NCBI RefSeq assembly: GCF_027533845.1
Contig: NZ_JAPZVN010000001.1
Span: 744,001-808,000, forward strand
DNA length: 64,000 nucleotides
Direction: 5' to 3'
Origin: Streptomyces sp. RPT161
GTDB taxonomy: Bacteria > Actinomycetota > Actinomycetes > Streptomycetales > Streptomycetaceae
Shown here: positions 6,627 through 8,806 of the stretch, piece by piece
Layout of the letters: every line of letters starts with the position of its first letter
Numbering within the stretch: position 1 is the first letter of the stretch
The notes under the pieces: model-generated
The model's input: the letters and a program-made list of their open reading frames with translations, nothing else
Told to the model about the DNA's origin: nothing
The model's database searches: none
Program-made: the position numbers and the translations under genes

Positions 6627-8216
6627 TCACTCCCACTCGATGGTGCCCGGCGGCTTGCTGGTCACGTCCAGCACCACGCGGTTGATCTCGCGCACCTCGT
6701 TGGTGATCCGGGTGGAGATCTTCCCCAGCACGTCGTACGGCAGCCGCGACCAGTCAGCGGTCATCGCGTCCTCGGAGGACACCGGGCGCAGCACCACCGG
6801 GTGGCCGTAGGTGCGGCCGTCGCCCTGGACGCCGACCGAGCGCACATCGGCCAGCAGGACGACCGGGCACTGCCAGATCTCGCGGTCGAGACCGGCGGCG
6901 GTCAGCTCTTCACGGGCGATCGCGTCGGCCTCGCGCAGCAGGTCGAGGCGGTCGCGAGTGACCTCGCCGATGATCCGGATGCCCAGGCCGGGGCCGGGGA
7001 ACGGCTGGCGCCAGACGATCTCGGACGGCAGGCCGAGTTCCTCGCCGACCTTGCGCACCTCGTCCTTGAACAGCTTGCGCAGCGGCTCGACCAGCCGGAA
7101 CTGGAGGTCCTCCGGCAGGCCGCCGACGTTGTGGTGCGACTTGATGTTGGCGGTGCCGGTGCCACCGCCGGACTCCACGACGTCCGGGTAGAGCGTGCCC
7201 TGGACCAGGAACTCCACGGCCTCGCCGTGCGCGCCCGCCTCGGCGACGATCTCGGAGGCGGCCTGTTCGAAGACCCGGATGAACTCCCGGCCGATGATCT
7301 TCCGCTTCTCCTCCGGGTCGGTCTTCCCGGCGAGCGCGTCGAGGAAGCGCTCCTGTGCGTCGACCACCTTGAGCTCAACGCCGGTGGCGGCCACGAAGTC
7401 CTTCTCGACCTGCTCGGCCTCGCCCTTGCGCAGCAGGCCGTGGTCGACGAAGACACAGGTCAGCTGGGAGCCGACGGCCTTCTGCACCAGGGCCGCGGCG
7501 ACCGCGGAGTCCACGCCGCCGGACAGACCGCAGATCACCCGCTTGTCGCCGACCTGCTCGCGGACCGCGGCGATCTGCTCCTCCACGACGTTGTGCGTGG
7601 TCCAGGTGGGCTCCAGGCCCGCGCCGCGGTAGAGGAAGTGCTCCAGCACCTGCTGGCCGTGCGTGGAGTGCATCACCTCGGGGTGGTACTGGACCCCGTA
7701 CAGCCTGCGCTCGTCGTTTTCGAAGGCGGCGACCGGAACGCCGTCGGTGGAGGCGGTGACGGTGAAGCCCTCCGGCGCGGCGGAGCAGGCGTCACCGTGC
7801 GACATCCACACCGACTGCTCGGCGGGCGTGCCCTCGAACAGGGTGGAGTTGGCGCCGTGCCGGTTGACGTACAGCGGGGTGCGGCCGTACTCGCGGCGGC
7901 CGTTGTTGTCGACCGTGCCGCCGAGCGTGGTGGCCATCAACTGGAAGCCGTAGCACATGCCGAAGACCGGGACACCCGCCTCGAACAGGGCGCGGTCGAT
8001 GGAGGGCGCGCCCTCCTCGTACACCGACGACGGTCCGCCGGAGAGGATGATCGCCTTCGGGTTCTTGGCGAGCATCTCGCTGACCGGCATGGTGCTCGGC
8101 ACGATCTCGCTGTAGACCCGGGCCTCACGGACGCGTCGGGCGATGAGCTGGGCGTACTGCGCGCCGAAGTCGACGACCAGGACGGTGTCGGCGGGAGCTG
8201 GGGTAGCTGATGCCAC
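6627..8216 (-). CDS. guaA: GMP synthase (glutamine-hydrolysing)
   Basis: A 529-aa GMP synthetase that aminates XMP to GMP using glutamine and ATP, the last step of guanine nucleotide synthesis. A class I glutamine amidotransferase domain occupies the first ~200 residues, with nucleophile Cys88 in FGMCYGFQ. The ATP pyrophosphatase domain has the PP-loop [12 protein letters not shown], and the C-terminal dimerisation domain ends in PPGTIEWE. The frame extends upstream to 8354, but GTG 8216 is chosen: GGAAGG precedes it at proper spacing and the family start ([12 protein letters not shown]) follows shortly. guaB and guaB3 are in the same window. It is divergent from the chorismate mutase gene. 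Confidence 0.97.
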
Positions 8217-8327: not shown

Positions 8328-8333
8328 CATAAT
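8328..8333 (+). promoter_or_regulatory. Candidate -10 element of the chorismate mutase leader transcript
   Basis: CATAAT at 8328-8333 is the only AT-rich hexamer in a GC-rich divergent region. Transcription starting about seven bases later would begin at or next to the ATG at 8341, which would give a leaderless mRNA for the leader peptide, a common arrangement in Streptomyces. No good -35 hexamer is seen. Confidence 0.45.
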
Positions 8334-8340
8334 GGCCGCC

Positions 8341-8412
8341 ATGTTCAGCAGCACGCACTTCGTCTTTACCTATGGCACCGGCTGGTCCGGCTGCCATGGT
8401 CATGCTGTCTGA
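8341..8412 (+). CDS. Aromatic-amino-acid leader peptide (23 aa) of the chorismate mutase gene
   Basis: ATG at 8341 to TGA at 8410-8412 encodes 23 residues with Phe at 2, 7 and 9, Tyr at 11 and Trp at 15, so all three aromatic amino acids fall within a nine-residue stretch. Phe9 (TTT) and Tyr11 (TAT) use codons that are rare in this genome. An in-frame ATG at 8332 could add three residues. It is followed after 17 bases by a perfect terminator hairpin and then the chorismate mutase gene. The layout is that of a classical translational attenuator, in which charged Phe/Tyr-tRNA level decides read-through. The role is inferred; no published counterpart is recalled. Confidence 0.7.
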
Positions 8413-8429
8413 ACGAACACAGACATCAA

Positions 8430-8475
8430 CAGGCGCCCCGGACCGGTATCGGTCCGGGGCGCCTGTCGTTTCCGT
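8430..8475 (+). terminator. Attenuator terminator, with competing antiterminator, ahead of chorismate mutase
   Basis: A perfect 16-bp stem (8430-8445 with 8450-8465; right arm CGGTCCGGGGCGCCTG) closes a GTAT loop and is followed by TCGTTTCCGT. An alternative pairing is available: CTGGTCCGG at 8382-8390, inside the leader peptide and spanning its Trp codon, can pair with CCGGACCGG at 8438-8446 (one G-U), which would break the terminator. A ribosome held at the Phe codons would leave 8382-8390 free. The hairpin lies 57 bases before the chorismate mutase start. Confidence 0.75.
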
Positions 8476-8521
8476 ACCGTTCCGAAACCGTCGGGGCAGC
8501 GACCCGGGAGGTAGTACGGAC

Positions 8522-8806
8522 ATGAGCACGAGCGCAGTGGACACCGGTGCGGGCAGCGCCGACGCGGCGTCGCTGATCAGCGACGCGCGGCAGCGGATCG
8601 ACGACCTGGACCAGCGCATCATCGGCCTGCTGGCCGAGCGCGTCACGGTCTCGGAGCAGATCCAACGCGAGCGGATCGCCTCCGGCGGGCGGCGGGTGCA
8701 CCTGTCTCGCGAGATGGAGGTCATCAACCGCTACAACGGGGAGCTGGGCAGGCAAGGCACCGCTTTGGCCATGACGGTCCTCGCCCTGTGCAGGGGGCAA
8801 CTCTGA
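8522..8806 (+). CDS. Chorismate mutase (AroQ type)
   Basis: A 94-aa all-helical chorismate mutase that converts chorismate to prephenate, the branch point to phenylalanine and tyrosine. The family pattern is visible: RQRIDDLDQRIIGLLAERV (helix 1 with the active-site Arg and Asp), then the segment SEQIQRERIASGG and the SREMEVINRY helix. The length matches monofunctional AroQ enzymes of Streptomyces. ATG 8522 is preceded by GGGAGG at 8506-8511. Expression is probably controlled by the leader peptide and hairpin immediately upstream, which fits the enzyme's role. Divergent from guaA. Confidence 0.93.
   Translation: MSTSAVDTGAGSADAASLISDARQRIDDLDQRIIGLLAERVTVSEQIQRERIASGGRRVHLSREMEVINRYNGELGRQGTALAMTVLALCRGQL

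Follow-up and report, generated by a model that had tools for sequence, protein, structure and literature searches.

A putative leader-peptide attenuator with phenylalanine and tyrosine codons precedes chorismate mutase in Streptomycetaceae

A short reading frame and a set of alternative RNA pairings upstream of the stand-alone chorismate mutase (CM) gene of Streptomyces sp. RPT161 (Table 1) probably constitute a ribosome-mediated transcription attenuator, a reading to which we assign a probability of about 85%. The leader is most likely to raise CM output when phenylalanine or tyrosine is short. This model is built on sequence, conservation, frame constraint, compensatory changes and complementarity, and from these we infer the start site of transcription, its termination, the waiting of the ribosome and the response to tRNA charging. 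The window is the whole stretch of DNA analysed, 64,000 nucleotides long; L-numbers denote loci, G-numbers genomes and f-numbers working labels of actinomycete families.

Table 1. Features of the CM leader region and its neighbours, in window coordinates.
Feature	Position	Strand	Remarks
guaA (GMP synthase), divergent neighbour, outside the switch	6627..8216	-	Profile matches
-10-like box CATAAT, 7 nt 5′ of the leader ATG	8328..8333	+	Box kept in named loci
Leader ORF, 23 codons and stop	8341..8412	+	Start codon and frame kept as far as Tyr11
Proposed sensor stretch TTC GTC TTT ACC TAT (F7-V8-F9-T10-Y11)	8359..8373	+	F9 TTT and Y11 TAT fixed in Streptomycetaceae
Hairpin 1:2, ACC(U)AUGGCACCGG / CCGG(C)UGCCAUGGU	8368..8400	+	Spans the Tyr codon (codons 10 to 14); would hide the antiterminator strand
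Predicted antiterminator strand CUGGUCCGG, holding the Trp15 codon (8383-8385)	8382..8390	+	Fold and cognate test
Hairpin B, UGUCUG/CAGACA	8406..8425	+	Over the leader stop; nested within the antiterminator
Candidate terminator hairpin, 17 bp, loop GUAU, tail CGUUUCCGUA	8429..8466	+	Covariation; weak U-tract
CCGGACCGG, terminator 5′ arm and loop, predicted to pair with the antiterminator strand	8438..8446	+	Fold and cognate test
CM gene, 94 aa, stand-alone	8522..8806	+	Likely SD GGGAGG at 8506-8511

The product of the downstream gene matches Pfam CM_2 at 34 bits (cut-off 27) and NCBIfam NF005894 at 111 bits (cut-off 73), which confirms the original prediction that a chorismate mutase lies 3′ of the hairpin. 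Its nearest named relatives are the CMs of S. rubrisoli (78% identity) and S. ferralitis (79%), and the same 78% and 79% CM identities are seen for the two other genomes of the window's genus. These matches make Streptantibioticus the probable genus of the window. The predicted frame of 23 codons is likewise present in the sequence, running from an ATG at 8341 to a TGA stop at 8410-8412, with Phe at positions 2, 7 and 9, Tyr at 11 and Trp at 15. The -10-like box adjoining the leader ATG suggests that the transcript is leaderless; a strict promoter and terminator scan returned no sigma-70 match and no terminator at the leader site. Because guaA lies divergently on the minus strand, the hairpin at 8429-8466 does not serve to end transcription of a plus-strand gene further upstream.

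The leader is a Streptomycetaceae-wide element and is not peculiar to the window. It is present at all 32 CM loci first fetched and at all 80 named CM loci (the best 80 CM relatives kept by the scan). A covariance model of the leader, R1, built on 30 of the 32 first-fetched loci, finds a match of E 1e-8 or better in 226 of 230 Streptomycetaceae genomes; among the four misses, G041, G065 and G227 are without a CM homologue, and in G091 the CM starts at base 105 of its contig. Altogether 120 Streptomycetaceae loci were read, some genomes twice: the leader is found at 112 of the 112 loci reached with CM as bait, and at the 8 reached with the leader model (L087-L094) a CM gene lies downstream on the same strand in every case. 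Apart from the site itself, R1 (E up to 1) hits the genome carrying the window only on that site's opposite strand and in three fragments consisting of the hairpin alone. The three genomes without a CM homologue are listed as 99-100% complete, yet their best CM hit reaches an E of only 0.04-0.2.

Against shuffled sequences the fold of the whole leader has a z of -7.3, with 0 of 200 shuffles as good. As in an attenuator, a blocking hairpin overlaps the control codons, hairpin 1:2 spanning the Tyr codon. Downstream of it, the hairpin first described as a 16-bp stem was recovered with its 4-base loop, the stem having 17 bp (arms 8429-8445 and 8450-8466). Compensatory changes of the kind anticipated for these hairpins are seen in two alignments: A6, which holds 25 hand-chosen sequences from four families (f1, f19, f39 and f50), and A2, which holds 30 of 32 loci from one family (L011 and L016 left out) and includes hairpin B. 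Covariation over hairpin 1:2 and the terminator is 0.186 in A6 against 0.105 when shuffled, and 0.108 against 0.080 in A2, levels reached by 0 of 500 shuffles in each case. Hairpin 1:2 is 80% paired in A6, where each of its two outermost pairs is missing in 10 of 25 rows, both being absent from most f19 rows. The Tyr codon is TAC in f39, f48 and f50, and in the f39 and f50 rows of A6 the pair formed by its third base is C-G in place of U-A. Hairpin B reads GUCUG/CAGAC in the window and GCUUG/CAAGC in most Streptomyces, so that two of five pairs are changed on both sides. In the downstream hairpin, over the 15 pairs counted in A6, 97.3% of cells are paired and 7 pairs are changed on both sides. 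We treat this 17-bp stem as a candidate intrinsic terminator, but one with a weak U-tract, averaging 3.6 T in 10 over 116 Streptomycetaceae leaders. Such a tract would be in keeping with an alternative in which the leader is translated while Rho-dependent termination or mRNA decay exerts control and the hairpin is not the main terminator. The retention of the hairpin, with its compensatory changes, in all four families of A6, and the tendency of its 5′ arm to match the leader strand, make this alternative unlikely.

The segment upstream of these structures behaves as a message. In 79 of the 80 named loci, 5-7 nt separate the end of a CA[TC]A[AC]T box from the first start codon; the remaining locus, L158, is near a contig end and stands outside the box count, with a CATACT box and an in-frame GTG visible there. 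The first ATG or GTG past the box shares its reading frame with the TTT-NNN-TAT core at all 79 named loci that could be tested, and the spacing from start to core varies between 7 and 11 codons. Past Tyr-Gly-Thr, 1-base frame shifts occur in L006, L018 and L020, with the bases still alike. Since the frame is kept from the start to Tyr11 at varying length and lost afterwards, the start-to-Tyr segment acts as message, and the position of the ribosome apparently matters up to Tyr11 and not beyond. At the level of sequence, a short ORF with end-product codons is thus kept as a reading frame. The high conservation of bases past the Tyr codon, even where the frame shifts, would also suit a conserved structured RNA before CM (a riboswitch or protein-binding site) in which the ORF is incidental. 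That reading is quite improbable, given that the leader's start codon, its frame and its aromatic codons are all kept ahead of the structure, that the aromatic content follows the downstream enzyme, and that Rfam gave 0 matches in the 64-kb window at gathering score. In addition, the distance from the Tyr codon to the aligned CM start ranges from 125 to 342 nt across Streptomycetaceae, a spread that counts against a fixed fold controlling the CM translation start.

Two codons of the message stand out. TTT at codon 9 and TAT at codon 11 occur in 32 of 32 first-fetched and 80 of 80 named loci, a set of 112 Streptomycetaceae loci in which some genomes are counted twice and for which the codon patterns permitted TTY or 2-4 mismatches. 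Both are rare in the genome, as had been proposed: in 37 high-GC3 ORFs of the window, TTT makes up 11 of 350 Phe codons (3%) and TAT 26 of 313 Tyr codons (8%). The UUU at 8365-8367 is fixed though UUC is some thirty times commoner in the window's ORFs, and this constancy is unexplained by pairing in hairpin 1:2. The F-x-F-x-Y pattern expected across Streptomycetaceae is borne out in the same 32 and 80 loci; within the leader codons originally singled out, UUU 9 and UAU 11 are invariant, and position 7 is variable, being mostly Phe but also Tyr, Ser, Val or Arg in the named loci. Phe2, which had been listed with Trp15 among the leader's aromatic codons, shows no conservation among Streptomycetaceae loci. 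Because F-x-F-T-Y-G is well conserved in this family, the nascent peptide itself could be imagined to cause arrest in the manner of tna-type leaders, a free amino acid possibly serving as its ligand. We give this hardly any credence: pairing in hairpin 1:2 already accounts for the Thr10-Tyr11-Gly12 codons, other families carry FWRFYG, FFYG or YFYYG, and in-frame peptide conservation past the stall site was not found, the shifts in L006, L018 and L020 falling there. Sensing of all three aromatics, Trp15 included, as the mixed form of the original prediction held from the TGG at codon 15 of the window leader, is to be discounted almost entirely, since Trp15 is present at 5 of the 80 named loci (L107, L108, L140, L160 and L185), is mostly Pro in the rest, and lies within the antiterminator strand, which a ribosome waiting there would cover.

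The predicted pairing of 8382-8390 with 8438-8446 is found in the minimum-energy fold of a transcript lacking the terminator 3′ arm. The terminator and hairpin 1:2 are compatible, and the antiterminator excludes both. In the partial transcript of the window, the antiterminator, which nests hairpin B, folds at -33.3 kcal/mol compared with -32.5 kcal/mol when hairpin 1:2 is enforced, a near balance that fits what a switch requires. Held to one fixed alignment register, the antiterminator is not above shuffles (59 of 500 shuffles in pairing and 202 of 500 in covariation). Since its position slides from lineage to lineage, the pairing was tested as free duplexes rather than in a fixed register. 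Across 40 leaders drawn from the 98 distinct ones (no more than 8 from any of the 11 groups, with Streptomycetaceae split by terminator motif, a division chosen after seeing the data), cognate duplexes have a mean of -24.0 kcal/mol compared with -20.8 kcal/mol between groups, with a group permutation p of 0.002 that uses all within-group pairs, same-genome pairs among them. The free-duplex set omits 5 of 159 loci (L027, L029, L142, L158 and L069). Several loci run contrary: own-partner pairing is worse than the average with others in L067 (f39), L202 (f19c) and L086 (f19a), and the own partner is no better than others in L205 (f37) and L200 (f30). As to the compensatory change anticipated for the antiterminator, its strand and the terminator arm pair more closely inside groups than across them, but not in the fixed-register count; subject to that count and to the contrary loci, the fold and the p of 0.002 point to an antiterminator exclusive with the terminator.

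Pairing of the antiterminator depends on how much of the leader is free. Over the 98 leaders it peaks at 11.6 bases with the RNA free from 6 nt past the start of the Tyr codon onwards, and falls to 8.2 at +13, 5.3 at +18 and 2.9 at +24. The front of a ribosome lies about 12-13 nt past the first base of the A-site codon. With this front assumed, the optimum at +6 corresponds to UUU in the A site; a ribosome at UAU would keep part of the pairing and one at Trp15 would mask most of it. Without a ribosome, the equilibrium antiterminator still forms in partial transcripts, at 9.0 compared with 11.6 paired bases. Equilibrium folding was accordingly rejected as proof of switching, as only the order of folding discriminates. 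It would follow that, for the switch to be off, hairpin 1:2 must be the first to fold as transcription proceeds.

In the proposed attenuator, transcription would begin at or beside the leader ATG, and a ribosome would trail RNA polymerase through the leader. When Phe- and Tyr-tRNA are charged, or when there is no translation, hairpin 1:2 (8368-8400) would form and hide 8382-8390, the terminator at 8429-8466 would then form, and transcription would stop. If charged Phe- or Tyr-tRNA ran low, the ribosome would wait at UUU (codon 9) or UAU (codon 11) and cover the 5′ side of hairpin 1:2. The 8382-8390 strand freed in this way would pair with 8438-8446, and CM would be transcribed.

The aroR leader of C. 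glutamicum is reported to be leaderless in work by Neshat (2014). It is a Phe-Tyr-Phe leader preceding aroF, which encodes DAHP synthase (PMC4046766 and PMC11802643), and is reported to answer to Phe and not to Tyr. Compared by description, it resembles the Streptomyces leader in being an actinobacterial leader with mixed Phe and Tyr codons that serves a gene of the aromatic pathway, and differs in its target, which is CM here and aroF there; the mixed form is therefore not as undescribed as had been supposed. The E. coli pheA gene, for CM-prephenate dehydratase, is controlled by attenuation at a Phe leader (pheL), and pheST likewise has a leader, according to PMC11802643. The likeness, again by description, is a Phe leader with attenuation before a chorismate-mutase enzyme; unlike pheA, the Streptomyces leader precedes a stand-alone CM, carries Phe and Tyr codons and starts beside a -10-like box. 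RNA-seq of S. lividans yielded 8 leaders (including trpL1, trpL2, leuL1, leuL2 and ilvL), which are leaderless short ORFs before biosynthesis or tRNA-ligase genes, most of them with hairpins; 0 of the 8 entries there are for CM, Phe or Tyr (PMC8079986, Table 4). Among the matches listed from the open-licence literature, titles and abstract openings mention no leader or attenuator for the chorismate mutase gene of any Streptomyces. A study of the S. coelicolor ilvB leader, as reported in PMC1262725, found that changed candidate codons were without effect, and look-alike leaders in the genus consequently need proof. Until termination and a response to tRNA charging are proven, we file the CM leader, by its sequence features, with the classical leader-peptide attenuators.

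Similar leaders extend beyond the family. Among the matches listed for R1 and R2, 60 regions comprise 47 leaders and 13 regions with the GC-rich hairpin only (L081, L082, L083, L085, L095-L098, L103-L106 and L206). The leaders among these matches precede CM in f33 (2 loci), f37 (1), f39 (2), f48 (2) and f50 (1), and DAHP synthase (PF00793, TIGR01361) in f19 (29 loci) and f30 (2); the downstream CM or DAHP synthase gene was confirmed by tblastn at all these loci. A CM search in the order's other families located the leader in f2 (1 of 1 locus) and f3 (11 of 12); in the f2/f3 set (L208-L220), the leader pattern gave none at L220, a distant CM-like frame of 36% identity. Outside Streptomycetaceae, CM leaders are thus found in seven actinomycete families and DAHP-synthase leaders in two, so that the arrangement is less unusual than the original prediction had it. 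The leader peptides contain FFYGYG (f3), YFYYG (f39), FFYG (f48 and f50) or FWRFYGY and FWFWYG (f19). The f19 and f30 DAHP-synthase leaders, with the gene downstream in 31 of 31 loci, share with the CM leaders a start beside a -10-like box, an aromatic cluster ending in Tyr, a hairpin over or beside the Tyr codon and a GC-rich hairpin; they differ in the gene served, and f19 usually adds Trp. A Trp codon up to the Tyr codon is present in 4 of 96 distinct CM leaders versus 25 of 28 DAHP-synthase leaders, a contrast owed chiefly to a single family (f19 25 of 26, f30 0 of 2). This codon content, Phe/Tyr or with Trp added, fits the branch served by each enzyme. Some f19 leaders among L068-L102 and L187-L204 carry all three aromatics before DAHP synthase, for example MQRNFWRFYGYRP and MRTAFWFWYGDGP, and from their sequence such leaders may possibly act as a sensor for the whole aromatic pathway. 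The fixed UUU outside Streptomycetaceae is not independent, because the codon pattern there mostly demanded TTT, and leader-model scores beyond Streptomycetaceae are in part due to the GC-rich hairpin, so that a common origin of the CM and DAHP-synthase leaders is not established. We nonetheless lean towards a single old class of aromatic attenuators in at least ten actinomycete families, absent from Rfam and the literature listed, which would guard CM or DAHP synthase with Phe/Tyr codons before CM and Phe/Trp/Tyr codons before most DAHP synthases, and would sense mainly via a fixed rare UUU ahead of a Tyr codon in the switching hairpin.

If true, the attenuator would explain how the Phe/Tyr branch is tuned in Streptomyces and relatives, which are major antibiotic producers, and it could be used in engineering the supply of aromatic precursors. 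A 2005 survey (PMC1262725) reported no conserved RNA structures before the Phe/Tyr operons of Actinobacteria, with which the CM leader contrasts. The CM and DAHP-synthase leaders would form a natural series that sets codon content against the branch controlled, and the fixed UUU in very GC-rich genomes would provide a clean test of whether wobble-read codons sense starvation better. In f33, the CM leader at L199 is unusual in layout: it seemingly has a YFYG cluster of aromatic residues followed by a second one, FFYE, and UUCUUUUAUGAGAAGA lies between its hairpin arms. In f3, several genomes (L224-L230) carry a second, distant CM-like frame, with 34-54% identity over the matched part.
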